DNA of 64,000 bases, from NCBI GenBank assembly GCA_024998625.1, contig JACOEL010000004.1:62001-126000 (forward strand). Reading direction: 5' to 3'. Source of the DNA: Nitrospira sp. (GTDB lineage: Bacteria; Nitrospirota; Nitrospiria; Nitrospirales; Nitrospiraceae). Positions 9,132 through 45,586 of this stretch are shown here, piece by piece. Both the position numbers and the translations under genes were made by a program. The notes under the pieces are model-generated. The model saw only the letters and a list, made by a program, of their open reading frames with translations, did not search any database and was not told the origin of the DNA. Each line of letters begins with the position of its first letter. Position 1 is the first letter of the stretch.

Positions 9132-9820
9132 TCACGCGTTGTCCTTCTCTATGGACGCAATGAAGGAATCCGCTTCCTGAATGGACGCGTTCAAATCCTT
9201 GACCAGTGAGTCGATGTTCCCTTCGACCGTCACCAGTTCGCTCTTGAGCGAAGCGATGGCCTGCGCGTTGAGGTTGTGCTTCAAAAGAGGACATGGTCTT
9301 TCAGCTTTCCCAGAACCGGATCCATTTTCGCTTCCGCCCGTTTCATGGCCTTGATCAATTGGGCGTACTGGCTGCGCGTCTGGGTGAGCTGCTTGTGGCT
9401 TGTCTGGCGTAACGTGGCGTTGGAATGCTGCTTGAGTTCAGCGGTCCATTCCTCGAACAGGGCTTCAGAGACATTTTCCACCGACGCGATGCGATCCCGG
9501 ACAGATTGGGCTCTCTTTTCGCTCTGTTGATACTCCTCGTTCAACACATCGTACTTGTCCTGTCATTCGCCGGCCGGGATATTCAAGGTCTTGGTGAAGC
9601 GATCGAGAGCCGATTTGAATTGTTCTTTCACGTCCTGCTGGGCGGCACAGGCCTTTTTCACGTCGTTCACCATCAGGTCACGCTTGTGATAACCCAGCTT
9701 CTCCATCGTTTCGGAATAGGCGGTTTGGCAGCCGGGCCCGATCAGGCCGAAGATGACCAGCGCACAAGCCAGCGAGAAGGAGATCAGTCTGCGGGAGCCG
9801 AAGGGATCCAGACAGTGCAT
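9132..9820 (-). pseudogene. DUF2959 family gene with a stop codon and a frameshift
   Basis: Three pieces form one DUF2959 protein. From ATG at 9820 a signal-peptide-like N-terminus leads to CQTAYSETMEKLGYHKRDLM and FTKTLNIPAGE. An in-frame TGA (9563-9565) interrupts it. The same frame continues as KYDVLNEEYQQSEKRAQSV to KLKDHVLF, where a one-base loss in a T run near 9285 shifts the frame. The end, LKHNLNAQAIASLKSEL to FIASIEKDNA, stops at 9132. The family is coiled-coil rich and of unknown function. Two independent lesions argue for real decay. Confidence 0.85.
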
Positions 9821-10079
9821 GGTCCATCCTTATCTATGCGGTTGATGCAGCCGGGCAGTGGACCCGGGCAGTGAGTGCCACCGACAGTGTATGTGATCAT
9901 CCTGAAAGAGTCGGTCGAGTGAAGCCGACGCGCGTTCGTTACTCTAGCAGACCGATCAGGCTTCTGCCGTTCGTCCGGAGCCTAGACATGGACGGATGAA
10001 TCCGTCATCCTTGAACAATATTTGCTCTGCGATCTCGCGTCCGGATTGCATCAGCGTTCAGAGGAAAGGAGGGTGAGAG

Positions 10080-10526
10080 ATGCCGAACAATACCGTTCGC
10101 CTGCACCGCGTGGTTCGAACCACACCGGAACGTATTTACCGCGCATTCCTCGATGCGGATGCCATGGCGAAGTGGCTGCCGCCGAACGGATTCACCGGAA
10201 AAGTCCACCAGATGGACGCCAGGGTGGGCGGCACCTACAAAATGTCGTTTACCAATTTCACCACCGGCCAGAGCCATTCATTCGGCGGAAAATACGTCGA
10301 ACTAGTGCCGTACGAACGGTTGCGCTACACGGATATGTTCGACGATCCGAATCTTCCGGGAGAGATCCAGGTGACGGTCACGTTGAGGAAGGTATCGTGC
10401 GGCACCGAGATGACGGTGGTGCAGGAAGGTCTCCCCGACGTATTCCCTCTGGAATCCTGTTACCTGGGCTGGCAGGAATCGTTGATCCTTCTCGCGAAAC
10501 TCGTCGAAGCGGAGATTCCTGGATAG
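10080..10526 (+). CDS. SRPBCC / AHSA1-domain protein
   Basis: A 148-residue single-domain protein with the START-like AHSA1 pattern: VVRTTPERIYRAFLDADAMAKWLPP, a GGTYKMSFTNF strand, GGKYVELVPYERLRYTDMFDD, and a C-terminal helix beginning YLGWQESLILLAKLVE. Such proteins bind hydrophobic ligands in a deep cavity; no catalytic residues are defined. GAAAGGAGGG precedes the ATG. It is isolated, with the decayed DUF2959 gene on one side and a gene-poor 340 bp on the other. Confidence 0.88.
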   Translation: MPNNTVRLHRVVRTTPERIYRAFLDADAMAKWLPPNGFTGKVHQMDARVGGTYKMSFTNFTTGQSHSFGGKYVELVPYERLRYTDMFDDPNLPGEIQVTVTLRKVSCGTEMTVVQEGLPDVFPLESCYLGWQESLILLAKLVEAEIPG

Positions 10527-10870
10527 AACCGGTTCTTGCAGACGAAGCTGATGCGGCCGTGTGATAGTGCTGCGCATGTGCGTATGGAGGACCGATGGTC
10601 GAGCGAACAGCACCTAGAGTATTGCGTTATATAGAGCCCACAGCGGTGGCCATAATTGAGGATCAGGCAAAAGGCTGCAATGCTGATGCTGCCTAGGTTA
10701 TGGATCTCGGCCGGGAGCTTTGGGTGGGTTTCTCAAACCGAGGGATTCGTCCATGCGACGATTCAGGCTGTGATAGGCGAGGTCTCTAGCAGCGAGGCGC
10801 GGGCGGTGATTTTGAGCCGAGCCCGCAGGCCGGCGCGATCCCGGCCCAGAGAACGCCGGACGGTGGACTG
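10527..10870. other. Gene-poor interval
   Basis: No convincing gene. A 33-codon ORF at 10595-10696 (plus strand, opening MVERTAPRVL) follows TGGAGG by five bases and could be a small protein or a truncated remnant; nothing recognisable was seen in it. Confidence 0.35.
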
Positions 10871-11500
10871 TCAGCCTTTCGGCGTAGGAACGAGGTCGAG
10901 TTTCGCGGACATCCTAACCAGGTCGGGGAGCGAGTCGGCCTTCATCTTTTTCATCACCATGCCCCGGTGCGCCTTCACTGTGATCTCGCTGATGCCGAGT
11001 TCGCCCGCGACCTGTTTATTCAATAGGCCGGTCACCACTAACGCCATGACCTGCCGTTCGCGTGGCGTCAGTGACGCGTAACAGTCCCGGAGCGCCTGCA
11101 TCTCTGTTTCGTGATCGAGAACGAGGCGGCTGCGTTCGAGGGCTTGCCGTATGGCGCTCAATAGCGCGTCATCACTGAATGGTTTCGTTAAGAATTCAAC
11201 CGCGCCGGCCTTCATGGCTTGGACCGTCATCGGGATATCACCGTGGCCCGTGATGAAGATGATCGGCATGTCGGTTCGTTCAGCCGCTACGCGATTTTGC
11301 AGGTCGAGGCCATTCAGGCCTGGAAGAGAAACGTCCAAGACGAGACAGCTAGGAACAGGCGCTCGTGGGCAGTCCAGGAATTCCTGGGCGGACGCGAAGC
11401 TCTCTGGTTGCCAGCCCCCGCAGCGGATCAACGGTTCCAGGGACTCGCGCACGGAAATGTCGTCATCAACGACAAATACGATGGCTGTTGCAGGCGACAT
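10871..11500 (-). CDS. FixJ-type response regulator (receiver plus LuxR HTH)
   Basis: A 209-residue two-domain regulator. The receiver has VVDDD at residues 10-14, the phosphoacceptor Asp56 in CLVLDVSLPG, and the switch lysine in EFLTKPFSD. The output is a LuxR/FixJ helix-turn-helix, SLTPRERQVMALVVTGLLNK followed by ISEITVKAHRGMVMKKM. A start at 11500 (after TTGGAGG) gives the normal FixJ length; in-frame ATGs at 11545 and 11581 are also possible, the latter directly after the stop of the preceding regulator gene. It is the third gene of a kinase-receiver-FixJ operon and probably its transcriptional output. Confidence 0.9.
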   Translation of the reverse strand: MSPATAIVFVVDDDISVRESLEPLIRCGGWQPESFASAQEFLDCPRAPVPSCLVLDVSLPGLNGLDLQNRVAAERTDMPIIFITGHGDIPMTVQAMKAGAVEFLTKPFSDDALLSAIRQALERSRLVLDHETEMQALRDCYASLTPRERQVMALVVTGLLNKQVAGELGISEITVKAHRGMVMKKMKADSLPDLVRMSAKLDLVPTPKG

Positions 11501-12009: not shown

Positions 12010-13716
12010 CTATTGGATGTTGGTATTGGTTCTGCATGGAATAGAGAATGAAAAAGTAGCCCCCGCACCATCATGGGGCACTGCCCACAGACGGCCATGA
12101 TGACTTTCGATAATGGAGCGGCTCACGGACAGCCCCATTCCCATACCGTCCTGCTTGGTCGTGTAGAATGCCTCGAAAAGCTTGTCCACGGTGTGAGGCT
12201 CGAAGCCGACTCCGGAATCTTGCACGGATACGCCCACACAATCGCCCTCCTGTCGGTGGGTTTTAACCACCAACTGCCTCGGACGATCGTTGACGCCGAT
12301 CATCGCATCCAGGGCATTCAGGAGCAGATTCAGGACGACCTGCTGGAGCTGGACACGATCACCTATGACAAGTGGAAGGTCGTCGGCAAATTCCGTTCGC
12401 ACAATCACTTGGCCTTTCTGAAGCTCACCAAGCGACAGCGCAATCACCTCTCGTGTCGTCTCATTGAGGTCCACCAATTCAGCTGTGACCTCTCTCTTGC
12501 TATAGAGGGTTCGCAATCGCAAAATCACTTCAGACGCACGGTTGGCGTCTCGCATCGTGCGCCGAATAGCTTCTCGCGCGCCGTCGAGGTTTGGGGAATC
12601 GTCCGTCAGCATTCGTAAGCCGGTACTACAGTTCGTGAGGATGCCCGTGAGTGGCTGGTTCAACTCGTGTGTAATCGACGCGGATAGCTGCCCGATCGTC
12701 GCGATGCGGTTGGCGTGTGCGAGTTCTAACTGAATTTCTTGGTATCGACGCTGCTCATCCTGAAGCCGCTTCGTCTCTGTCATATCGCGATAGATCACGT
12801 AACCGGTGTCCCCGCTACCAAGAGATGACACGGGCACGCAAAGCAGGGAGACGGGAACAGGCATGCCATTCTTATGTCTGCGGACGGTCTCAACGGCGAA
12901 TACTCCTCCCGTCGGGACCATCCGATACATCACGCTTTCGACCTCCTCTTGAAGCTCGTCTGGCGCAATAAGGTCTTGGAGTCGCCGACCGATCGCTTCT
13001 TCTGCCGTGTATCCAAAGATCTTCGTGAATTCCGGGTTGACACGCACTATTCTGCAGTCGCGATCGGCCAAGACAATAGCCTCTGGAACCCGCGCGAACA
13101 ATTCGCTGAGATGTGCCTTTTGCTCCTCAAGTTCACTGCCCAAGCGGGCCAGCGTCTGCAGGTCTCCTTGCAGGACATCGCGGCAGTGCGACAGGAGCTC
13201 CTGGTACATATCGCTGTATCGATTCGTTTTATTGTCGAGAACGCAGATGGTTCCGAACACCCGTCCATCCGGCCAGAAAACAGGGAATCCCAAGTACGAG
13301 ACCATCCCCACCCGCATCTCAGGAGCTGATTTCCACTGATCGTTTTCCAAACCGTTCGCAACAAGGAGCGGTTCACGGCTTTTGATGACGGTCTCGCAAA
13401 AGGTTCCAATATCCATGGAGAAGATCTGATCAACCGGGAAAGGATTTCCAGTCGAGTTGCTCGACGATATGACGGTGTAATGGGTGTAATCCGGCGGTTC
13501 GATCTTGCACACCACCGCTGAAGGAACGTGCATGATGTTGGCCAGAAGGTCGACGATTCGTTGCCATTTCCGAAGAACGTCTGATGAAATTGCGATTTCT
13601 GGGGCATCTGAATTCACGGCGCGACCTCCGTCAGCGTCTGCGATCAGCCCATAGCCCGCGCGGGAGTGGTGCAACTCGCCAACATAGTATGCGCCGCCCA
13701 TCCTACTAAGGTCCAT
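12010..13716 (-). CDS. GAF-PAS sensor histidine kinase (FixL-like)
   Basis: A 568-residue soluble kinase without membrane segments. Domains in order: GAF (about 45-190, with FCETVIKSREPLLVANGLEND and YLGFPVFWPDG), PAS (about 205-320, AIVLADRDCRIVRVNPEF to YRDMTETKRLQ), HisKA with phospho-His350 in SASITHELNQPL, and HATPase (LNLLLNALDAM, QDSGVGF, DGMGMGLSVS). It would autophosphorylate and pass phosphate to the two response regulators downstream. No haem-ligand PAS motif is evident, so the signal is unknown. Its promoter should lie in the 290 bp divergent gap before 14005. Confidence 0.92.
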   Translation of the reverse strand: MDLSRMGGAYYVGELHHSRAGYGLIADADGGRAVNSDAPEIAISSDVLRKWQRIVDLLANIMHVPSAVVCKIEPPDYTHYTVISSSNSTGNPFPVDQIFSMDIGTFCETVIKSREPLLVANGLENDQWKSAPEMRVGMVSYLGFPVFWPDGRVFGTICVLDNKTNRYSDMYQELLSHCRDVLQGDLQTLARLGSELEEQKAHLSELFARVPEAIVLADRDCRIVRVNPEFTKIFGYTAEEAIGRRLQDLIAPDELQEEVESVMYRMVPTGGVFAVETVRRHKNGMPVPVSLLCVPVSSLGSGDTGYVIYRDMTETKRLQDEQRRYQEIQLELAHANRIATIGQLSASITHELNQPLTGILTNCSTGLRMLTDDSPNLDGAREAIRRTMRDANRASEVILRLRTLYSKREVTAELVDLNETTREVIALSLGELQKGQVIVRTEFADDLPLVIGDRVQLQQVVLNLLLNALDAMIGVNDRPRQLVVKTHRQEGDCVGVSVQDSGVGFEPHTVDKLFEAFYTTKQDGMGMGLSVSRSIIESHHGRLWAVPHDGAGATFSFSIPCRTNTNIQ

Positions 13717-25585: not shown

Positions 25586-26407
25586 ATGACGACGAACACG
25601 GTGGTACCGGAAATGGACGGTCTGAAAACCCGTCTCAATACCATTTGGACGGCAGGGGATTACGATCGATTCTCGCGCTACATGGAAGGCGGCGCCCGGG
25701 AATTTTATGAGCGTCTCCAGCTTGCGCCGGGATGCCGGCTGTTGGATGTGGGGTGCGGATCCGGCCAACTCGCGTTGTTGGCCGCCAAGGATGGGGTGGA
25801 GGTGACGGGGGTGGACATCGCCGCCAATTGGGTGGAGCGGGCGCAAGCCAGGGCTCGTGCCGAAAGGGTGAGCGCCCGATTCAAAGTCGCCGATGCCGAA
25901 GCGCTGCCGTTCGAGGCGGCCAGTTTCGACGTCGTCGCGAGCCTGATCGGCGCGATGTTTGCTCCGCGGCCTGATCTGGTGGCGAAGGAGCTGTTGCGGG
26001 TCTGCGTCCCGGGAGGGACCATTGCGATGGCCAATTGGACGGCGGAGGGCTTCGTGGGGCAGATGTTCAAGAACGTCGCGAAATTCATCGGGCCCTCGGG
26101 CATGCCGTCGCCGGTGCTGTGGGGCAACGAGGCCACGGTTCAAGAACGCCTTGGTCACGAATTATCCACGCTCAGCCTGATCAGGCGGCAGTATCTGTTC
26201 AGCTATCCGTTTCCTCCCTCGGAGGTCGTGGAATTCTTCCGTCTCTACTATGGACCGACCAACCGGGCTTTTGCCTCCCTCGACGCCGAGGGGCAAGCGC
26301 ACTTGCGCCGAGATCTGGAAGCGCTCTGGACAGCGCACAATCAAGCGGGGCCGGATTGCACGACGGTGTACGGCGAATATTTGGAAGTCGTCGGCATTCG
26401 GGCGTAA
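25586..26407 (+). CDS. SAM-dependent methyltransferase (UbiE/MenG type)
   Basis: A 273-residue class I methyltransferase. Motif I is LLDVGCGSGQLALLAAKDGV, motif II follows with VTGVDIAANWVERAQARAR, and the substrate-side DAEALPFEAASFDVV is the usual post-I region. It methylates a small molecule that cannot be named. A strong GGGAGGAGG precedes the ATG. It is the first of two methyltransferase genes in an operon divergent from the AraC regulator. Confidence 0.9.
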   Translation: MTTNTVVPEMDGLKTRLNTIWTAGDYDRFSRYMEGGAREFYERLQLAPGCRLLDVGCGSGQLALLAAKDGVEVTGVDIAANWVERAQARARAERVSARFKVADAEALPFEAASFDVVASLIGAMFAPRPDLVAKELLRVCVPGGTIAMANWTAEGFVGQMFKNVAKFIGPSGMPSPVLWGNEATVQERLGHELSTLSLIRRQYLFSYPFPPSEVVEFFRLYYGPTNRAFASLDAEGQAHLRRDLEALWTAHNQAGPDCTTVYGEYLEVVGIRA

Positions 26408-26438
26408 CACCCGATTACTCACACAAAGGAGACACATC

Positions 26439-27491
26439 ATGACCATCGATCAAGACAAGCTGAATGAGTTCTTGGGCAAGGCCGTGGCGGACATCGGTGC
26501 GGCATGGAGCGCCAACATGGTGCTGCTTGGCGACAAGCTGGGGTTGTACAAGGCGATGGCCGGTGCGGGGCCTGTCACTCCAGCGGAATTGGCCAGGCTC
26601 ACGAAGACTGCCGAGCGGTACATCCGCGAGTGGTTGGGCAATCAAGCCGCGGGTGGCTACGTCACCTACGATCCGGCCTCCGGTCGGTACGAACTCCCGG
26701 CCGAGCAAGCCGCCGCATTGGCTGATGAGACGAGCCCCTGTTTTCTCCCAGGCGCGTTCCAAGGCATTGCCGCAGGCTTCGCGGCAAATCCAAAAATTGA
26801 AGAACGTTTCCGGACGGGCCATGGCATGGGATGGCACGAACACGAGCCGGAATTGTTTGTGGGCACCGAACGGTTCTTCCGGGCCGGTTACGTGGGGAAC
26901 CTGCTCAGCAGCTGGATCCCGTCGCTGGACGGGGTGGAAACCAAGTTAAAGACAGGCGCGCGGGTTGCGGACGTGGGCTGCGGGTTCGGCGCCTCCACCA
27001 TTCTGATGGCCCAGGCCTTCCCACACTCGATTTTCCACGGCTTCGATTATCACGAAGCGTCCATCCTGGCGGCGAAAGAGCGCGCCGAGAAGGCAGGGGT
27101 GAAGAACATTCGGTTCCAGGTCGCCTCTTCGACCGATTATCCAGGAGGGGACTATGCGTTGGTCACCCACTTCGACTGCCTCCATGATATGGGCGATCCC
27201 GTCGGGGCGGCGAAGCAGGTGCGAAAGACCTTGGCGCCGGGCGGCACGTGGATGATCGTCGAGCCCTTTGCCGGAGATCGGGTGGAGGACAACCTGAATC
27301 CCGTCGGTCGAGTCTTCTACGCCGCCTCCACTATGGTGTGTGTGCCGGCTTCGTTACACCAGCATGGCCCGGCGTTGGGTGCGCAGGCCGGTGAAGCGCG
27401 CTTGCGTGAAGTCATCCAGCAGGGGGGATTCTCCAAAGTACGTCGCGCGACGCAGACGCCGTTTAATCTGGTGCTTGAAGCCAGGGTTTAG
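26439..27491 (+). CDS. SAM-dependent methyltransferase with winged-helix N-terminus (Rv2258c-like)
   Basis: A 350-residue protein. The N-terminal 90 residues form a dimerising winged helix (GLYKAMAGAGPVTPAELARL and YIREWLGNQAAGGYV). The catalytic domain has RVADVGCGFGASTILMAQAF and YALVTHFDCLHDMGDPVGAA. This layout matches the Rv2258c group of O- or S-methyltransferases. ACAAAGGAGAC sets the start at 26439, 31 bases after the previous gene. Together the pair may modify the same substrate. Confidence 0.9.
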   Translation: MTIDQDKLNEFLGKAVADIGAAWSANMVLLGDKLGLYKAMAGAGPVTPAELARLTKTAERYIREWLGNQAAGGYVTYDPASGRYELPAEQAAALADETSPCFLPGAFQGIAAGFAANPKIEERFRTGHGMGWHEHEPELFVGTERFFRAGYVGNLLSSWIPSLDGVETKLKTGARVADVGCGFGASTILMAQAFPHSIFHGFDYHEASILAAKERAEKAGVKNIRFQVASSTDYPGGDYALVTHFDCLHDMGDPVGAAKQVRKTLAPGGTWMIVEPFAGDRVEDNLNPVGRVFYAASTMVCVPASLHQHGPALGAQAGEARLREVIQQGGFSKVRRATQTPFNLVLEARV

Positions 27492-34027: not shown

Positions 34028-35323
34028 ATGGATACGCCTCCTTCTTTTATTCGTGATGCCTCAATGTATCTGCCGAGACCGCCTGTAGACGGTCACCCGT
34101 TCCCTGCGAATCTAAAGCTGCGACAGCATGAAGTGCAGGTTGTGTCCGGGCCTGGTGGCTGTCTTGCTGCCGCCTGGACCGACGATACGAAGACGGATGG
34201 CATGCAGGGATGGATCTGCGGGTATGCCGTTAGCTTGGATGGCGGTCAGTCCTGGAGTATGCCAATGTTTCATAAGCGATCGGACTTCGCCATTAGCGGT
34301 AACCCTTCGATCGCGGTGGACACCCATGGTGTCGTCTTTGCTGTGTCGATGTCTGTCCAGGAAGATTATTCCTGTGGAATTCTCGAACTATCCAGTTCGT
34401 CCGATTCGGGTCGCTCATGGTCAGGATGGACGACGATCACGTCAAAACAGAACGGAATCCCCGATCGCCCCAAGCTTATAACCGCCACAGATGGCAACCT
34501 GCATCTGGTCTTTTCCAACGTCGAGCGCAACCAGCGCTCAGGGACATTAAAGCGGCTCAGGAGTACCATCCAGGCTATGCACTCAATGGATCACGGTGGA
34601 ACGTGGTCAGAGCCTAAGACGATTTCTAAGGGAGTGCAACGGTCTCGCTGGTTCGTGGATGGCTACCAAGGACCTGCTATCATCGAGGCACCAAACGGAA
34701 GCGTTATAGTCTCCTGGGCCGACTATTACGGAAACGGGGTAAGCTTTTCGGTCCGCCGCAACAATGAGGTTGAATTCGACTCGCCAGTTTGGGTGAGATT
34801 GAAAGCATTGCCCGGAACAACTTTACTATCGTGGCTGTTGGGGGCAACATTCGGCACTCCTGTTACAGAATTGGCGGTGGATGCTACAGGCAGGAACATT
34901 GTGATTACGGTCCATGAGGCACATGCGATGGGGCCAGTCCTTCTGGTCGGCAGTCAGGACGGCGGAAAGACCTGGTCCAGACTCTCTCAACTCACCCGAC
35001 GAGGGAGCAATGTATCCATCGCGTTCGATTCCATCGGACGACTTCATGCGATCTGGACAGAATTGCGTGGGCAGGAGGTCGATGTCATGTATGCATCTTC
35101 GAACGATTGGGGGCACAAATTCCTCCCTCCAATCTCGCTTGCTGGCACTGGCACCTCTGTAACCCTGCCCAATTCAGCGCGTGAACGGGACGAGTATGCA
35201 GAGGCACTGGGCTCCTATCAGTCGCTAGTCATTACCAGAGACGGCAACGCATCTGCGTTTTGGGTGGACCTCCGAGATGGCTTTTTGAGGCCCAAACTGT
35301 ACCAATCGACCTGGCAAATTTGA
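34028..35323 (+). CDS. Asp-box (BNR) beta-propeller protein, sialidase-like
   Basis: A 431-residue protein with four clear Asp-box repeats: SLDGGQSWS (69-77), SSDSGRSWS (124-132), SMDHGGTWS (186-194) and SQDGGKTWS (309-317), typical of six-bladed propellers such as sialidases. No signal peptide is visible. The catalytic Arg triad and Tyr/Glu pair of true sialidases cannot be confirmed, so a binding role is equally likely. Codon use is less GC-rich than in the flanks. It is convergent with the peptide/protease operon. Confidence 0.8.
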   Translation: MDTPPSFIRDASMYLPRPPVDGHPFPANLKLRQHEVQVVSGPGGCLAAAWTDDTKTDGMQGWICGYAVSLDGGQSWSMPMFHKRSDFAISGNPSIAVDTHGVVFAVSMSVQEDYSCGILELSSSSDSGRSWSGWTTITSKQNGIPDRPKLITATDGNLHLVFSNVERNQRSGTLKRLRSTIQAMHSMDHGGTWSEPKTISKGVQRSRWFVDGYQGPAIIEAPNGSVIVSWADYYGNGVSFSVRRNNEVEFDSPVWVRLKALPGTTLLSWLLGATFGTPVTELAVDATGRNIVITVHEAHAMGPVLLVGSQDGGKTWSRLSQLTRRGSNVSIAFDSIGRLHAIWTELRGQEVDVMYASSNDWGHKFLPPISLAGTGTSVTLPNSARERDEYAEALGSYQSLVITRDGNASAFWVDLRDGFLRPKLYQSTWQI

Positions 35324-35402: not shown

Positions 35403-35639
35403 TTATCGCCGAGGCACAAACGAAACCCATGCGTTAAGAGCCTGTGCGCGACGCCGACAGCCACCGCACGAGGGGATACCGACCACTGATGCGATGCGCG
35501 CAATCACATCACCGAGACCCACTTCGTCCGAAATAAGTCTTGGAAGGCTGATCCGGTGCCTGACACTTCTGGCACCTTCTGATTCTCCATCTGCGCTTTC
35601 ATGCACAGTCGTTTCAGCAGTGAATCCTGGTATGCTCAT
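35403..35639 (-). CDS. Peptide A: PGFTAE-leader small protein with CxxC tail
   Basis: A 78-residue peptide opening MSIPGFTAETTV, the leader shared with the next two upstream peptides. Its C-terminal half reads GLGDVIARIASVVGIPSCGG followed by CRRRAQALNAWVSF, a CGGC-type segment with a basic helix. A GAAGGAG SD lies nine bases upstream of the ATG, inside a predicted hairpin. It is the last gene of the minus-strand run protease - C - B - A. Probably a precursor or a small effector processed by the protease; function is unproven. Confidence 0.7.
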   Translation of the reverse strand: MSIPGFTAETTVHESADGESEGARSVRHRISLPRLISDEVGLGDVIARIASVVGIPSCGGCRRRAQALNAWVSFVPRR

Positions 35640-35713: not shown

Positions 35714-35956
35714 TTATGGGACACAGCGGTTGATCAATGTTCTTCCAAAGCAGCTAACACTCACACATGCCCGCGGTGGAAAGATTCTAAAATTGACACA
35801 GATACGACAGGGCCCGATACTTGTGCATGCCTGCGGCGCAACCACTGCTCCTCTAGCCGATGCATCCAGCGCTCTTGCCGTACTACACGCCGTACTATAC
35901 GTGAGTGTATGGCTGCCATACACTGCCGCTTCAGCTGTAAATCCGGGCGTATTCAT
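35714..35956 (-). CDS. Peptide B: cysteine-rich PGFTAE-leader peptide
   Basis: An 80-residue peptide opening MNTPGFTAEAAVYGS. The rest holds seven cysteines (TACST, PQACTS, GPCRIC, RACVSVSC, NRCVP), suggesting disulfides or modified residues in a secreted core. AAAGGAG lies seven bases before the ATG, so it is well translated. It sits 48 bases after the stop of peptide C and 74 bases before peptide A. The strong leader identity and divergent remainder are what one expects of a leader/core precursor. Confidence 0.72.
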   Translation of the reverse strand: MNTPGFTAEAAVYGSHTLTYSTACSTARALDASARGAVVAPQACTSIGPCRICVNFRIFPPRACVSVSCFGRTLINRCVP

Positions 35957-36004: not shown

Positions 36005-36229
36005 TCAGACTTCGTCACCTACCTCGCCCTCTTCTTCTGCCATGTCCATGGTCTCCTCTTCTAGCATGTCCATGGTCTCTCCATCATCCCCAAGGCCTTC
36101 ATCCCACTCTTCGCCGTTTGACTGCAGATGCAGGTGAACTCCCTCGGCAGTCCCATAACGATCCTGCATCCGATAAACCTGCGTCGTTGGGCCAACACTC
36201 GCTTCTGCTGTAAACCCGGGCAGCGCCAT
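36005..36229 (-). CDS. Peptide C: PGFTAE-leader peptide with acidic tail
   Basis: A 74-residue peptide opening MALPGFTAEASVGPTTQVYR. The C-terminal part is strongly acidic (GDDGETMDMLEEETMDMAEE) and carries no Cys, unlike peptide B. The SD GGAAGGAGGTG is very strong. It starts 35 bases after the protease stop. The three peptides share only PGFTAE[AT][SAT]V, which would therefore be the element recognised by a common enzyme. Confidence 0.72.
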   Translation of the reverse strand: MALPGFTAEASVGPTTQVYRMQDRYGTAEGVHLHLQSNGEEWDEGLGDDGETMDMLEEETMDMAEEEGEVGDEV

Positions 36230-36264: not shown

Positions 36265-38115
36265 TTATACTCGCTCGTAGAATGGCGAGAGTTTCTTATC
36301 GAGGTACGGATATCTCTCGCTCACATCCACGCGCACATAATACTTGTCGATCACATCGGTCTTCCGGTTGGTGTATGAAAGAATGACATTGACTAGCTTC
36401 CGGTTGCCGGTGAGCCGCGAAGGCGTAACCTCAACAGCGGTGAAAGAGTAGTCCTGGGCGAACATCTCCGCCGTATGTACGTATATCTGTGGATAGCGTA
36501 CAAGGAGGTAGTTGAGCGCACGGTGCTCATCCGTCGCACCTACGTTGTCCCCCATCTGCTGAATGCGATCGAACAGCTCTTGGGTTGCTGACGCGAATGC
36601 CTCATTAGTCATCTGAGAAGCTTTCGGTTTCTTTATGGCACCCAATAAGTCAGTCTTGTCAAAACTGTAGACGCGGTCAACCAACACGATGGGCACAATC
36701 AGTCCATTGCACATTTCCGCGGAAGCCATTGGCCCGCGCGTCCCGATAATGACATCGGTATCAATTCCCCGCTGCGACGGCTTCACGGCTTCCACAAACT
36801 GGTCAAGCACCGCTGGTTCGCGCGGAACCAAGACGTAAGTATCGACTCCTTCCACCGAAAACAACCAGCAGACCTCGTTCGCCAAATAGCGGTTCTCCTT
36901 GAGGGCTGTGTGCAATGTCGCTTGGTCGGTCAAACTTGCGGTTGCGTTAGTGGCGATGCACTGCGAAAACTCCTTTTCGATTGCCGGGCTCGGAAAGCGC
37001 GTCTGCACCATGCCGATCGCATAAATGGGCGTTTGCGCTCCCGCATTTTCCTGCGAACCGACGGCGCACGTTGGACACGAAGCTGTCTGGCTGATAACCT
37101 GCCGTGATGGATTTGCGCCCACAACCGTACTGCAGGCCTCTGGTCGAATAGCTAAGGACGGAGTTTCGGCCAGGGGCTCCCTGTGGCTACTTTCATCTGA
37201 CATGTGAGTCTCCTTTCTGTTAAGGGGCATACGCCGATATATTCTTGCTCCTTCCACGTCAAAGAGCGGAGGGACAATTGAAGGATGCTCTCGTTTTGCA
37301 GACTGCAGGACGGCGGTCCTCATCTCAATTGCCGACATTGCTGGAGATTCGGACCACAGTAGTGCGATTCCACCTGTGACAAATGCTGCAGCAGCGCTTG
37401 TTCCTGAGATGGGCGCATAGCCCGCACCAGGGACGGCGGTCAGAACGTCCACACCTGGCGCGCACAGCCCGCCCTTTCCTATCCTAGGGCTAACATTGGA
37501 CTCAGGAGTTATCCTTCCATTCTGATCGCACGATGCGACCGGAATGACCCACGGCCGATTCAGCAGTGGCAGAAATCCGATCCGGCCCTGATTGCCAGCG
37601 GCTGCCACCAAAATGACGCCGCGGTGCGCCGCATAATCACATGCTTCATCTAGCTCTCGGTATGTGGAAGTGTCTGCTGGTACTACGCCGAGACTGAGAT
37701 TAATGATTTTCGCGCCGCCATCGACAGTTTCCACGATCGCCCGTGCTAGTTCTGCTGGTGTTGTTAAGGCCAGACCATTTGGGCCTTGCGGGTGCTCCGG
37801 GAAAATTGGGTAGAAGAGAAAGGTGCAGGATGGGCAGATCGCTGGCGCTGGAGAACCCCGCTTGGCACAAAGAATCCCTCCGATCCCTGTCCCGTGAGAG
37901 CAGGCCTCGCTCCGTACGTCCTGACAGGTAGCCAGTTGATTCGGTCTAACGGTCCGTATGGAAGAATCGACAAGAGCCGGATGGGTGAGGTCAATAGGTC
38001 CGTCTATAATGCCTACAGAAATCGAAGGATCGCCGCTACAAATCTCCATCAAGCGAGTGAGCTTGAGAAGCGCAAACATTGTGGAAATTGACTCTGAATA
38101 AAACTGCTCGGACAT
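36265..38115 (-). CDS. PatG-like subtilisin with C-terminal PatG-type domain
   Basis: A 616-residue protein. The subtilase half (about 30-290) has Asp38 (VGIIDGPIDLTHPAL), His74 (CSHGTGIGG), the oxyanion Asn175 (AAAGNQG) and Ser240 (ISGTSAAAAF). After a linker with a CPTC motif, residues about 350-500 (IYAIGMVQTRF, then EVCWLFSVEGVDTYVLVP and GLIVPIVLVDRVYSFD) resemble the C-terminal domain of cyanobactin PatG/PatA proteases, which cleave and cyclise peptides. There is no signal peptide. The three PGFTAE peptides follow on the same strand. A strong SD precedes an in-frame ATG at codon 305. Confidence 0.85.
   Translation of the reverse strand: MSEQFYSESISTMFALLKLTRLMEICSGDPSISVGIIDGPIDLTHPALVDSSIRTVRPNQLATCQDVRSEACSHGTGIGGILCAKRGSPAPAICPSCTFLFYPIFPEHPQGPNGLALTTPAELARAIVETVDGGAKIINLSLGVVPADTSTYRELDEACDYAAHRGVILVAAAGNQGRIGFLPLLNRPWVIPVASCDQNGRITPESNVSPRIGKGGLCAPGVDVLTAVPGAGYAPISGTSAAAAFVTGGIALLWSESPAMSAIEMRTAVLQSAKREHPSIVPPLFDVEGARIYRRMPLNRKETHMSDESSHREPLAETPSLAIRPEACSTVVGANPSRQVISQTASCPTCAVGSQENAGAQTPIYAIGMVQTRFPSPAIEKEFSQCIATNATASLTDQATLHTALKENRYLANEVCWLFSVEGVDTYVLVPREPAVLDQFVEAVKPSQRGIDTDVIIGTRGPMASAEMCNGLIVPIVLVDRVYSFDKTDLLGAIKKPKASQMTNEAFASATQELFDRIQQMGDNVGATDEHRALNYLLVRYPQIYVHTAEMFAQDYSFTAVEVTPSRLTGNRKLVNVILSYTNRKTDVIDKYYVRVDVSERYPYLDKKLSPFYERV
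37201..37215 (-). promoter_or_regulatory. Strong internal ribosome-binding site within the PatG-like gene
   Basis: AGAAAGGAG followed by ACTCAC and an ATG (complement of 37201-37203) lies at codon 305 of the 616-codon gene. It is the best SD in the gene, better than the one at 38115. Translation here would give a separate 312-residue PatG C-terminal domain, suggesting either a fusion of two genes or two products. Confidence 0.55.
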
Positions 38116-38567
38116 TCTTTTCGACCTTTTCTTTATAATTTACTCATGGGTCAGTAAGTTAAACAGCATCGGCCGTGTGCACGATACTCCTCTTGTAATC
38201 ACGTATGATCATTTGCTTGCTACGTAGTGTGGTCATAGAAGAGACCAAGTTCTTGTTGGGCTAAACGGCGACCGACACTCCCTACTGCCGGACAGGCAAT
38301 TACTGTGAAGATTTCAAGCAAGGTCTGTACCGGGGCGGTCAGAGAAACGTCGGCGGCGGGTTTTCGGTGGGTTGCAAATGGACGCATTCCAAAGGGAGAA
38401 AGAGCATAGAAGAAAAGCGTATCTAAAACGATCCGTATGCTTATCGAAAACGATACAGTGGTGCTGGTTCGTTTGCGTTCAAATTAAAAAAATGGGTGTG
38501 GAAGGAACGAATAAAACGGGGTCAGCAACTGTCTTCAAAATCAAGCGGGCTGAATGGCCGTCACCCG
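38116..38567. other. Non-coding, low-GC interval upstream of the PatG-like gene
   Basis: No convincing gene on either strand. The base composition is clearly lower in GC than the core flanks. It should hold the promoter for the protease/peptide operon. Confidence 0.5.
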
Positions 38568-40023: not shown

Positions 40024-41922
40024 ATGAAAGTGGAGTATTCCAAGGGCGAGCGGGCTTCCAAAGAGCTGATCCTCCTCAATCGTCAAAGTTTCGAAGCGAC
40101 CAGCGGCCGGAAGATGAAGGTCCTGTTGATCTTCCCTCCCGACTGGTTTCCTTCCGAACCCTATCTGAGTCTCCCGTCCCTCACCGCCGTGCTTCGCCAG
40201 GCCGGTCATACGGTCATTCAAAAAGACATCAACCTCGAGATGTGGGACTGGTACTTCAGCGAGGACTTCTTGAAGAAGGTCCTGCGCAAGGTGCCGCAGC
40301 AGCTCGACCGGCTCCGTAAGCTGGCGAAGAAACGCGAACTCGAAGAATGGGAGCAGGATCTCCAGCTCACGCTCTGCGACCTGACCCGTCAGCGGATCGA
40401 CGACCTGATCAAGAAAGCGGAGAAGGCGAAGGCGATCATTCGCGGGGAAGTTTTCTACGAAATCGATCAGTTAGAGTGGGCGATTCATGTATTTCGTGAG
40501 GTCACGTCGGTGATCTCGATGGTTTATGCTCCGGCGCGGATCTGCATGCCGCCGATGGAGACGGACCTCTCCTATAAAGTCTTCGTGTCCCACGAAGTGA
40601 TGGACGCGGTGAACGACGCCCAGGTGAACATCTATCGGGACGTGTTCGAGCATCTGGTGAAGCCGGCGATCGAGGCGGAGCAACCGGATGTGGTCGGCAT
40701 CTCGATCGTCTTGCAGCAGCAGATGTTTTCCTCCATGACCTTCTGCGCCCTCATCAAGCAGCACTTCCCCCACATCCACGTGACGATCGGAGGAAACACG
40801 GTGACGCGTCTGCGCGACGTGCTCCCGCAGTCGCCCCTGTTTCAATACTTCGACAGCGCCGTGGTCTATGAAGGGGAGACGGCGTTCGTGCAGCTGGTGT
40901 CGGCGGTGGGGGCGAAGCGGAGCCTGGCCGATGTGCCGAACACTATCTATAAGGACGCGACTGGAGTGCATGTTTCGACGACGAGTTTCGCGGAGGACAT
41001 GCATGCGTTGCCGCCGCCGGATTTCGACGGGTTGCCGCTGGAGAAATATTTCGTCCCGACGAAGATTCTGCCCTATCTCGCCACGCGCGGTTGCTACTGG
41101 GGCCGCTGCGAGTTCTGCGACCATGGCGAAGGTTATACGGCGGGATACCGGAGCAAGAAGATCCAGGACATTCTCGTCGAGATCACGCATCTGCGCGATA
41201 AGTATGGCGCGAAGCATTTTCATTTCACCGACGAATCCTATCCGCCGGCGCTCTTCCGCAAGCTGACGCGCGGCCTGGTCGAGAGCAACATGGGCATTGC
41301 CTGGACCACGCATATGCGGTTCGAGAAGAGCCTGCTGGAAGATCAGGTCTGGCAGGACGCGAAGGCCTCGGGCTGTAAGTATCTCCACTTCGGTTACGAG
41401 TCGGGGAACGAACGAGTGCTGAAGCTGATGGACAAGGCGACGACCACGGAGATCATGACGAAGCATCTGCAGCTCACGGCCAACGCCGGCATTTGGAACC
41501 ACTGCATGGGCTTCTTCGGCTTTCCCGGCGAGACGCGGGAGGAAGCCTGGTCGTCGGTGGAGTTTCTGGAGCAGAACAAGGACCATGTGCATTCGCTGGG
41601 GTTCGGCACGTTCGATCTTGGCCGGCACAATCCGGTGGCGAAACATCCGGAGAAGTTCGGTGTGACCGCCTATCGGAATCCCGAGTGGGACCTGGCGCTC
41701 GACTACTACTTCACCGTGAAGCAGGGGTTGAGCATTGAGGAAGCCGAGCGGGTGTTCGAAGAATTCGAACGCCATCACAACCCCGGCTGGGATCTGCGGC
41801 TGTTCATCCGGGAATATATCTTTCTCTATATCGCGCGGTTCGGGTTGCAGAAGCTGCCGGACTTGCAGTTCCGGTCGGCGAGGGTGGCCACGGTCCCGCC
41901 GTCGCTTGCGGGGAAAATGTAG
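40024..41922 (+). CDS. B12-binding-type radical SAM protein, paralogue 1
   Basis: A 632-residue protein. The N-terminal part (about 30-290), KVLLIFPPDWFPSEPYLSLP to VVGISIVL and HVTIGGNTVTR, looks like a cobalamin-binding Rossmann domain without the DxHxxG motif. A long helical insert (75-160) is rich in Lys/Glu. The radical SAM cluster is Cys357, Cys362, Cys365 in RGCYWGRCEFCDHG, spaced CX4CX2C rather than the usual CX3CX2C. A later segment, MGFFGFPGETREEAW, is a common rSAM barrel motif. The substrate is unknown. About 130 bases separate it from paralogue 2. Confidence 0.85.
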   Translation: MKVEYSKGERASKELILLNRQSFEATSGRKMKVLLIFPPDWFPSEPYLSLPSLTAVLRQAGHTVIQKDINLEMWDWYFSEDFLKKVLRKVPQQLDRLRKLAKKRELEEWEQDLQLTLCDLTRQRIDDLIKKAEKAKAIIRGEVFYEIDQLEWAIHVFREVTSVISMVYAPARICMPPMETDLSYKVFVSHEVMDAVNDAQVNIYRDVFEHLVKPAIEAEQPDVVGISIVLQQQMFSSMTFCALIKQHFPHIHVTIGGNTVTRLRDVLPQSPLFQYFDSAVVYEGETAFVQLVSAVGAKRSLADVPNTIYKDATGVHVSTTSFAEDMHALPPPDFDGLPLEKYFVPTKILPYLATRGCYWGRCEFCDHGEGYTAGYRSKKIQDILVEITHLRDKYGAKHFHFTDESYPPALFRKLTRGLVESNMGIAWTTHMRFEKSLLEDQVWQDAKASGCKYLHFGYESGNERVLKLMDKATTTEIMTKHLQLTANAGIWNHCMGFFGFPGETREEAWSSVEFLEQNKDHVHSLGFGTFDLGRHNPVAKHPEKFGVTAYRNPEWDLALDYYFTVKQGLSIEEAERVFEEFERHHNPGWDLRLFIREYIFLYIARFGLQKLPDLQFRSARVATVPPSLAGKM

Positions 41923-42052: not shown

Positions 42053-44017
42053 ATGAGTAGCTCCGGCTTGGTCCAAATCGACGGTCTGAGTCCGATCAGG
42101 AAAGAGGATCGGAAGACTTCCAAGGTCATGTTGTTGTTCCCGCCTGAGTGGGTGCCGACGGCGCCCTATCTCGCCTTGCCTTCACTCACCTCCGTGTTGC
42201 GGGAGGCGGGGCATATCGTGGTGCAGCGCGACATCAACATCGAGATGTACGACCATTTCTTCACCATGGAGTTTTTGATCTGGGTGAAGGGTCGCCTGGG
42301 CATGCAGCTGAAGCCGCTTCAGGATAAGGAAAAGGCGGGAAGGCTGACGGAGCAGGAAGCCGCTCAGAAAGCGGTGCTGGAAGATGCCTATGCGGTAGAC
42401 GTATTCGACCTGGCGCAGCGTTCGGAGGACGCGAAGCTCATTGTGCGAGGTGAGCGGTTCTACGATGCCGAGAAGCTGGAGCGGGCGCTGAACACCTTCC
42501 GCGAAGCGATGCAGTATATTTCCGCGGCTTACTATCCCGCCTCGCTCGTGTTTTATCCGATGGAAAGTAATCTGGGCTATCGGCCCGGCGTCTCGAAGGA
42601 AGTCTTCGCCTGTCTCGACGACGAACAGGTGAATGTCTATCGCGACATCTGCAATCAACTCGTGTTGCCCAGCGTGAGCAAGGAGCAACCGGCGGTGATC
42701 GGCATCTCCATCGGCACGCAGATGCAGCTGATGGCGGGCCTCACCTTTTGCAAGATGATCAAGGAAAGTTTTCCCGACATCCACGTCGTGGTCGGCGGCA
42801 ATGTCGTGACACGGTTGCAGGAAGAATGGGCCAAGCACGAGCGGTTCTTCACCGAGGTCTTTGACGCAGCGATCTTGTACGAAGGGGAGCATGCGCTGCT
42901 TTGGTACATCGAGGCGGTGAACGGTCAGCGTCCGATGGAGTCCGTGCCGAATCTGATGTATTACGAGTCTGGTGCGGTGCAGCAGAGCAAGGAAGTCTAT
43001 ACGGAGAAGACGGCGGCGCTGCCGCTGCCGGATTTCGACGGCTTGCCGCTGGATCACTATTTCGTTCCCGAGCGGATCATTCCCTATCTCGCGACGCGCG
43101 GCTGCTACTGGGGCCGCTGCACGTTCTGCGATCACGGCCAGGGGTATTTCGATCAATACCGCGGCATGACGGCGCAGCATGTGGTGGAGCAGGTCACAGC
43201 GCTGCGGGACAAGTATCAGTGCCGGCATTTCCTCTTCTCCGACGAGTCCTATCCACCCGCGCTCTTCAAGAAGGTGTCGCAGATGCTGGTGGACCGGAAC
43301 GTCGGCATCAAGTGGACGACGTTGATTCGATTTGAAGAGACCCTGCAAGACCAGGCGGTCTGGGACCTAGCGGCCAAAGCGGGCTGCTGCACGCTCTACT
43401 ACGGGATGGAATCGGCGAACGAGCGTGTGCTGAACCTCATGGATAAACACGCGAAGAAGAGCGTGATTCAGAACAATCTCCACCAGGCGGCGAAGGCCGG
43501 CATCTGGAACCACGTGATGGCATTTTACGGGTTTCCCGGTGAGACGCGCGAAGAGGCGCTGGAGACGCGGCAGTTCGTCATCGACAACCAGCCGGTCATT
43601 CACTCCGTGGAACTATTCTATTTCGTGGCCTATCGTCATACTCCCATGGTGCGCAATCCGGACAAATTCGGCATCACGATCCACAAGCAGGAGGAGTACG
43701 ACCTGCCGCTGGATTACTATTACACGCTGAACGAGCCGGTGGGGATTTCCTGTCTCGACGCGATGCAGCTCTGCGAAGAATTTTATAAGAACGACTTCAG
43801 CCCTTGGGCGGTGCGGGTGAACAGTCGCGAACATGTGTTTCTCTATATCTCAAAATTCGGCACGAACAAGTTGCCGCAGATCTATGCCGCCACCAAGGAC
43901 GGCTCCTTGGCGAAGGAGGGCGTGTCGGGATTGGTGACCTGGCCCGTGGCGATGGGCGAAGGCGAAGACGGCAAGGAAGGTATGAGCCGGGTGATGTCAC
44001 ACGGCGTCAGCGGGTGA
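42053..44017 (+). CDS. B12-binding-type radical SAM protein, paralogue 2
   Basis: A 654-residue paralogue of the preceding protein over its whole length: KVMLLFPPEWVPTAPYLALP, VIGISIGTQMQLMAGLTFCK, and the same unusual cluster Cys351, Cys356, Cys359 in RGCYWGRCTFCDHG. FYGFPGETREEALETRQF is shared with paralogue 1. The C-terminus has an additional tail of about 40 residues. Conservation of CX4CX2C in both copies shows it is not a sequencing error. Co-transcription with paralogue 1 is likely. Its last 21 bases overlap the next gene on the other strand. Confidence 0.85.
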   Translation: MSSSGLVQIDGLSPIRKEDRKTSKVMLLFPPEWVPTAPYLALPSLTSVLREAGHIVVQRDINIEMYDHFFTMEFLIWVKGRLGMQLKPLQDKEKAGRLTEQEAAQKAVLEDAYAVDVFDLAQRSEDAKLIVRGERFYDAEKLERALNTFREAMQYISAAYYPASLVFYPMESNLGYRPGVSKEVFACLDDEQVNVYRDICNQLVLPSVSKEQPAVIGISIGTQMQLMAGLTFCKMIKESFPDIHVVVGGNVVTRLQEEWAKHERFFTEVFDAAILYEGEHALLWYIEAVNGQRPMESVPNLMYYESGAVQQSKEVYTEKTAALPLPDFDGLPLDHYFVPERIIPYLATRGCYWGRCTFCDHGQGYFDQYRGMTAQHVVEQVTALRDKYQCRHFLFSDESYPPALFKKVSQMLVDRNVGIKWTTLIRFEETLQDQAVWDLAAKAGCCTLYYGMESANERVLNLMDKHAKKSVIQNNLHQAAKAGIWNHVMAFYGFPGETREEALETRQFVIDNQPVIHSVELFYFVAYRHTPMVRNPDKFGITIHKQEEYDLPLDYYYTLNEPVGISCLDAMQLCEEFYKNDFSPWAVRVNSREHVFLYISKFGTNKLPQIYAATKDGSLAKEGVSGLVTWPVAMGEGEDGKEGMSRVMSHGVSG

Positions 44018-44344: not shown

Positions 44345-45586
44345 ATGCCCACCACGCTTCCTATTTTTCAGCCCACCCCGATCTTCAAGGATCGGACCGA
44401 CTATCGCCAAGTGCTCATCCGGGAAATGGATGCGGGGAAGATTCCCTTGAGCCTCGGCCGGGATTGTCCGGTCAAATGTGAGTTCTGCTACGAACTCGAC
44501 CACTCCTACCGCGAAACTCTCGATCCGCCGAAAACCAGCGACGAAGACTGGACGTTCATCCTCAACTACATCAGCCGGAAGCCCACCGATCCGACACAGT
44601 TTTGGTGTCTCGGCGGCAACGAGTTCATGGAATGGACCGACCTGTTCCTGCACCCCAAGGCGATGGAATGGGTGGAGGACTTTCTCCGCGAAACAGACAA
44701 GAGCATCCAGTTCTTCACCGTCGGGTTCGTGCATGTACCCAAGATCCATCAGTTGGTGGCGCGATATCCCGGCCGGATCAACTTCGAATTGTCGGTCATC
44801 ACGCTGAGCGACTACCGGCAGCGGTTGATGCCTCATGCCCCCTCCGTGAAACATCTCATGAAGGTGCTGGACGGCCCTGCCGTGTCATCGGCGAATTTTT
44901 ACGCGTTCGACAAGGACACGATGTCGAAGGATGCGGCGACGATCTCCAAGGTGAATCAGCAATGTGTGTTGTGGATGGGGACGCTGACTCCGGTGCGTGG
45001 GCTCAAGGAGGAGACAGCGGCCCTCATGCGACAGGGGCGAAAATTTCTGGCGGAGGAAGCCGGTCGGGTGTATGACCTGGGGCTGCCGAATCTGCAGACC
45101 ATCCATACCGAGTCATACGCGACCGCTTTCTTGAGCCGCCGGCGCATCGTCAGCATGTTCGACCAGCTGGAATTGGAGAAGAAGGATACGGTGGTGATGG
45201 CTGGTAGTGTCCACAAAATCCTGACTATGTACCGGAAGAATCGCGCGCGTTTTTTGTACGTGCCCAACGCGTTATTGAGCGGAGACTCCGACTGCACCGT
45301 GCTCTTGACCTTCGACGACATTGCCCGCCGCTTGACCAAGGAGAAGGTGGTGCATGTGCCCAAGTGCATCATGCAGTCGGGCAGGGGGCCCTATACAGAC
45401 ATCACTGGGGTCACGCTGGAGCAGTTCAGCAAGAAGACCGGCGTGCGGGTGAAGGTGTTGCACAAGATCGATACCCGGTTCGCCAATCAGCAGCTCTACC
45501 GAAACGGCTCGCTGCAAAACTACGTCGAGCAATACCTCAAGCATCCGTTGAGGCAGGCTTATGAGGCTATGCCGCGCCCGGTTTAG
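44345..45586 (+). CDS. Radical SAM protein without B12 domain
   Basis: A 413-residue protein. The cluster motif is CPVKCEFC (Cys41, Cys45, Cys48), the standard CX3CX2C, in LSLGRDCPVKCEFCYELDHS. There is a LGGNEFMEWTDLF strand and, in the C-terminal third, VPNALLSGDSDCTVLLTFDD, which may be an extra domain. The barrel is shorter than in the two paralogues upstream and the substrate is unknown. It starts 330 bases after the second paralogue, with the J-like gene in between on the other strand. It may act with them in one pathway. Confidence 0.8.
   Translation: MPTTLPIFQPTPIFKDRTDYRQVLIREMDAGKIPLSLGRDCPVKCEFCYELDHSYRETLDPPKTSDEDWTFILNYISRKPTDPTQFWCLGGNEFMEWTDLFLHPKAMEWVEDFLRETDKSIQFFTVGFVHVPKIHQLVARYPGRINFELSVITLSDYRQRLMPHAPSVKHLMKVLDGPAVSSANFYAFDKDTMSKDAATISKVNQQCVLWMGTLTPVRGLKEETAALMRQGRKFLAEEAGRVYDLGLPNLQTIHTESYATAFLSRRRIVSMFDQLELEKKDTVVMAGSVHKILTMYRKNRARFLYVPNALLSGDSDCTVLLTFDDIARRLTKEKVVHVPKCIMQSGRGPYTDITGVTLEQFSKKTGVRVKVLHKIDTRFANQQLYRNGSLQNYVEQYLKHPLRQAYEAMPRPV

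Follow-up and report, generated by a model that had tools for sequence, protein, structure and literature searches.

A Nitrospira gene fusion of a subtilase and a PatG-type domain with a candidate second start at the domain junction

Does a long open reading frame (ORF) from Nitrospira encode one protein or two? This ORF lies on the minus strand of a 64,000-nucleotide stretch of genomic DNA (the window), spans 616 codons (36265..38115) and joins a subtilase (S8) to a PatG-type domain. A preliminary description had pointed to a strong start site inside the ORF and had offered two explanations: separate translation of the C-terminal domain, or a recent fusion of two adjacent genes.

The open reading frame and its internal start site

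Reading of the minus strand confirmed the motif on which this proposal was built. The Shine–Dalgarno sequence (SD) AGAAAGGAG (37210..37218) is separated by the spacer ACTCAC from an in-frame ATG six bases on, which is codon 305 of the fused ORF (37201..37203). The SD match, AAAGGAG, comprises 7 nt with a gap of 6 nt. By comparison, the first ATG of the ORF is preceded by the weak SD AAAGG (38125..38129, minus strand), a match of 5 nt with a gap of 9 nt, so that the internal site is indeed the stronger of the two, as had been claimed. Codon 305 is also the sole ATG with an SD of at least 5 nt among the 12 that follow the first. From this codon to the end of the ORF 312 residues are encoded, in agreement with the earlier count.

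With Pfam profiles we could assign three domains to the single chain, each above its cut-off: Peptidase_S8 (residues 31–275; 37291..38025, minus strand; 101.3 bits), PatG_D (residues 364–457; 36745..37026, minus strand; 82 bits, cut-off 27) and PatG_C (residues 503–610; 36286..36609, minus strand; 101 bits). The protease half contains the motifs IIDG, HGTG and GTS at positions 36, 74 and 238, and D38, H74 and S240 occupy the usual motif positions of the subtilase triad. Based on this profile and these motifs, the protease half can be assigned to subtilase family S8. Its closest folds are PagA (4h6w, Z 35.2), PatA (3zxy, Z 34.6) and PatG (4aks, Z 33.5), with ordinary subtilisins barely below these values (Z about 33). 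The 312-residue half adopts, in the predicted structure, the fold of 4uvq (Z 19.4 over 243 residues; next match Z 6.1; Foldseek E 6.1e-14). Its profiles and this modelled fold identify it as the PatG domain of unknown function.

The predicted structure of the 616-residue protein (mean pLDDT 86.6, pTM 0.60) consists of two confident parts, between which the pLDDT falls below 50 at residues 301–347 and 349–357. This predicted disordered linker (residues 301–357; 37045..37215, minus strand) has its counterpart in the N-terminal tail of the free protein of relatives. Codon 305 sits where the subtilase ends and the linker begins, 59 residues upstream of the PatG_D match at residue 364, and both pLDDT and Pfam bear out its earlier placement at the junction of the two domains. 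Since the linker begins here, translation from ATG305 would yield a complete domain.

How unusual is such a motif by itself? An SD of at least 7 nt precedes 4 of the 196 internal in-frame ATGs in the long ORFs of the window, and 8 of 2,429 in the ORFs of related loci. When the fused gene was shuffled among synonymous codons, 2,002 of 20,000 shuffles (10%) reached at least 7 nt at codon 305. We therefore rejected SD strength as proof of a start; the motif alone is weak, and the case has to be made by comparison with relatives. RNA folding of the two start regions gave no support for the internal start: its region folds with −11.2 kcal/mol, a value close to that of its shuffled versions (z −0.53), and the region of the first ATG is less stable (−4.6 kcal/mol). 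Elsewhere in the window, 7-nt SDs precede internal in-frame ATGs at codon 354 of 34028–35323 (plus strand), codon 263 of 12010–13716 (minus strand) and codon 64 of 26250–27491 (plus strand), the last of which may be the true start of its gene.

Separate and fused halves among relatives

Among 395 genomes from the phylum, 14 gave a match to the PatG_C profile, and the full protein was searched against 175 genomes of the family. The protein query alone returned no relatives from GTDB genome contigs; an alignment of the C-terminal half was needed, with which we found 119 relatives in GTDB genomes. The 80 of these that were taken on carry the labels Nitrosomonadaceae, Acidobacteriota, cyanobacteria, Planctomycetota, Streptomyces and others. 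Searching plasmids with this half yielded five records.

A census of the window and loci L058–L162, restricted to PatG-type copies longer than 120 residues and scoring above 60 bits, comprised 100 copies. The preliminary description had proposed to compare homologues to see whether the two halves occur as separate genes, and in this census they do so in 90 copies; eight more have no subtilase in reach, and only the window ORF and L082 are fused. In these numbers, two contigs are counted twice (L110 is the contig of L069, L111 that of L064), the subtilase match of L077 is weak (62 bits), and L082 gives two copies, the second of which was scored as split even though the subtilase closest to it belongs to the fused ORF. 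No copies were taken from L068, L071 and L079, which are old-type single chains, or from L073–L076. Six loci fetched after the census are all split. Further fused relatives were found neither in 235 genomes of the order, nor in 347 and 246 genomes from the phyla of two relatives (Acidobacteriota and Planctomycetota), nor among the matches listed for 230 genomes of the class of L082. One candidate of 643 residues (L178) was rejected as an old-type chain. Additional fragments of PatG-type genes occur in L066 (421–834 and 7221–7507) and L067 (4284–4388), as if copies decay nearby.

Split pairs share a common arrangement, with the subtilase gene upstream and the PatG-type gene downstream on the same strand at a median gap of 258.5 nt; 12 of the 90 have a gap of no more than 60 nt. 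In L058, L089 and L120 the protease stop (TAA in L058) lies 15 nt before the ATG of the PatG-type gene, in frame. The split PatG-type gene typically starts with an SD and ATG at the counterpart of codon 305; the tail that comes next is poorly conserved and resembles the linker. When only ATGs no more than 15 codons from the expected start were considered, an SD of at least 6 nt preceded 43 of 87 PatG-type genes and 4 of 87 subtilase genes; by a looser rule, 7 of the 90 split copies lack an SD. The window ORF repeats this contrast, with the stronger SD at the PatG-type half.

The second fused ORF, L082, comes from another family of the same phylum. It is an open frame of 625 codons with AGGAGG nine bases 5' of the junction ATG. 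This ATG, codon 303, has a 6-nt SD and is the only one with at least 5 nt among the 19 ATGs past codon 10. Hence, an in-frame SD and start at the domain border, the features by which a gene within a gene may be recognized, are kept in both known fused ORFs, at codons 305 and 303. The split state of 90 of the 100 copies, the match to the start of the free gene and the single SD-backed ATG at the junction of both fusions together make it well supported by sequence comparison that the window ORF is a head-to-tail fusion of a PatA/PatG-like subtilase gene with a free PatG-type gene. The same observations bear on the idea that the SD-like run is nothing but Arg-Lys-Glu codons ahead of an ordinary methionine: the frequency of 7-nt matches among synonymous shuffles would allow it, but the site coincides with the place where the free genes begin, and the feature recurs in L082, which together render it very improbable.

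Both fused ORFs also contain an out-of-frame stop where the junction of split pairs usually lies. In the window this is a TAA (37220..37222, minus strand), located 16 nt 5' of the internal ATG at the position of the protease stop in split pairs, and in L082 it is a TAG. In either ORF, a change of one base would thus seem to be all that separates the joined frame from the split arrangement. This raises the possibility that the genes are truly separate, and that the joined ORF is the product of a sequencing error or of a one-base frameshift of recent origin where the protease gene ends. Read one frame over, the protease would end at the TAA, at a distance close to the 15 nt of L058, L089 and L120; L082 behaves likewise with its TAG, and a run of CCCC lies immediately upstream. 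However, the joined frame is found in two unrelated assemblies and the other long ORFs of the window appear intact, which leads us to consider this explanation distinctly unlikely.

We then asked how old the fusion may be. The window and L082 share 137 of 279 residues in the protease and 104 of 256 in the PatG-type domain (40–50% identity). In trees they form a group with SH-aLRT values of 97 (both halves; computed without the long branches L063, L077 and L078), 94 (protease) and 95 (a set of 42 of 86 rows, also used for the topology test), albeit on long branches. This grouping is most simply explained by a single old fusion common to both ORFs, although the sequence data do not prove it: the PatG half of L082 groups with the neighbouring copy of the same locus (support 99), the place of the window becomes unsupported once L082 is removed (55, protease tree), and the topology test does not reject a clade that unites the window with L058 and L060, which are local split pairs (p-AU 0.396). 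Of the preliminary claim of a recent fusion of two adjacent genes, the fusion stands, given the separate state of 90 of 100 copies with an SD and ATG at the matching place. "Recent" finds no support, because the only other fused relative groups with the window at 40–50% identity.

The single chain could instead be ancestral, as in PatA/PatG, with the relatives having split and the junction SD having been acquired later. Consistent with this order of events, PatA/PatG proteins are single chains, and in a tree of the PatG half alone the window sits without resolution close to the group's base, with a very long outgroup branch. Nevertheless, a fused ancestor would have had no reason to carry a start site (SD plus ATG) at its junction, nor an out-of-frame stop there, a midpoint-rooted tree of the S8 half alone nests both fused ORFs among the split ones, and a third gene stands between the halves in 71 of 90 split relatives. 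We regard this alternative as highly unlikely.

If the ORF is a fusion, the junction SD and ATG might be unused relics within a gene that makes a single-chain product. The old PatA/PatG-type proteins L068, L071 and L079 are indeed single chains, and both the shuffling result and the more stable folding of the internal start region, relative to the first start, are in line with a relic. Against it, SD and ATG are retained in both fused ORFs in otherwise poorly conserved surroundings, where only 1 of 14 residues of the tail and 14 of 53 of the linker are identical. If the fusion is shared, decay would be expected in one of two such distant lineages; should the fusions instead have arisen independently and not long ago, the junction SDs may be leftovers. 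On balance, we consider an unused relic unlikely.

Neighbouring peptides and the CGGC protein

The fused gene is adjoined in the window by three small ORFs of the PGFTAE type, all on the minus strand. The first two, beginning with MALPGFTAEASV (36005..36229) and MNTPGFTAEAAV (35714..35956), are candidate precursor peptides. The third (35403..35639) begins with MSIPGFTAET and continues into a CGGC-type domain. Related loci with split pairs (L058–L162) contain several short ORFs each, which start with MxN(M/I/L)PGFTAEASLY and end in variable, Cys-rich tails. Across 75 of 97 loci we counted 175 PGF ORFs on the same strand and 7 on the opposite strand, with the consensus PGFTAEASLY and a Cys content that rises from 0.6% in the first 35 residues to 11% thereafter. 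A strict PGFTAE-type pattern gave 113 matches and none in the reversed-sequence control. Judged by a conserved leader and a variable core, these ORFs look like an unnamed RiPP-like precursor family, and on sequence grounds they are the likely substrates of the protease and PatG-type pair. No family in Pfam or NCBIfam matches the peptides, and the main texts of open PMC papers contain no mention of PGFTAE, KPCGGC, PF18065, or PatG with Nitrospira.

The gene between the halves in 71 of 90 split copies (for example L070, L065 and L067) encodes a small protein with the pattern LPGF...GLGD...KPCGGC...R...LNRW, for which PHROGs returned a weak match to a family of unknown function. The LPGF motif is present in 38 of 42 of these small CGGC proteins. 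In the third small ORF of the window, a PGFTAE start precedes the CGGC domain and the LPGF of the domain itself has become LPRL. These sequences hint that the PGFTAE leader and the LPGF of the CGGC protein are a shared recognition motif. At both fused loci the small CGGC domain is now encoded downstream, beyond a PGFTAE ORF. Past the fused ORF of L082, the same strand carries at 9730–11256 an ORF for a PGFTAE peptide, a CGGC gene and another PatG-type gene, which stands free.

Two B12-binding radical SAM proteins (40024–41922 and 42053–44017, plus strand) and a radical SAM-like protein with a weak match (44345–45586, plus strand) are encoded divergently from the fused gene. Besides the S8/PatG group, no protein family of at least 110 residues is common to more than 10 of the clustered loci, and for this reason we dropped the radical SAM genes as members of the system.

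A putative second product and its relation to known systems

Taken as a whole, the reading that we find reasonably probable is a gene fusion in which the start at codon 305 is still used. The 312-residue protein is likely to be translated separately, as suggested by the junction SD and ATG in both fusions and by the strong SDs of the free genes. Codon 305 and its SD would then be the second gene's own translation start. Ribosomes initiating at codon 1 would make the fusion of protease and domain at a modest rate, and those initiating at codon 305 would make the free 312-residue domain at a higher rate, probably in excess; this excess is suggested by the SD contrast across the split family. The free domain and the protease would act jointly on the peptides with PGFTAEASL leaders encoded beside them. 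Use of the start, excess of the domain and joint action with the protease are what we infer from the arrangement and start sites of these genes.

The closest known system is PatA/PatG of cyanobactin (patellamide) biosynthesis (TIGR03895), which the window protein resembles in the order of subtilase and PatG-type domain and in the folds of both halves. In contrast to PatG, however, it has no oxidase part. Its score against TIGR03895 is 135.7 bits with a cut-off of 421.05, and it therefore falls outside the definition of that family. Identity to the old-type single-chain relatives of the same phylum is 21–34% (tblastn). The relatives of the window protein differ further in keeping the halves as separate genes, with PGFTAEASL peptides and the CGGC protein as neighbours. 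Similarity of the subtilase to QhpE, from quinohemoprotein amine dehydrogenase maturation (NF049966), amounts to 63.4 bits, below the cut-off of 165.

According to Mann et al. (2014), PatG-DUF (4uvq) is the end of a long chain in PatG, bound neither the unmodified nor the heterocyclised precursor, and was left with an open role (PMC4259220). The domain of the window family shares this fold and mostly occurs as a free protein, in many cases with a strong SD of its own. PatA-like enzymes are described as cleaving after G(L/V)E(A/P)S (PMC10885120). This site resembles TAEAS of the PGFTAEASLY leader, and a cut there is a guess. A more specific version of our reading is tentative: one gene would give two products, the protease with its PatG-type domain and an excess of free, leader-binding domain, which together with the CGGC protein would mature the peptides with PGFTAEASLY leaders. 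By analogy with PatA, cleavage would perhaps occur after EAS.

Production of a C-terminal part from an internal in-frame start has precedents. It was demonstrated experimentally for Cas11b inside cas8b (PMC11899642) and for RpnS inside rpn (PMC10327210). In these cases the C-terminal part is made alone and works with or on the full-length product; in the window, the corresponding start is deduced from sequence. Unlike Cas11b and RpnS, the split state is common in the window family and fusion is the exception.

For the PatG domain, a structure has been solved but no role is known (PMC4259220). Since the PatG-type domain of the window family is usually a free gene beside the protease and the peptides, its role lends itself to study independently of the protease. 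Together, the peptides and the CGGC protein have the look of a precursor and protease system that is still without a name and extends across many bacterial phyla. If codon 305 is used, the window would represent a fusion in which both products have been retained, in the manner of Cas11 and Cas8, and if the two-product reading is true, leader binding would be the missing role of the PatG domain.
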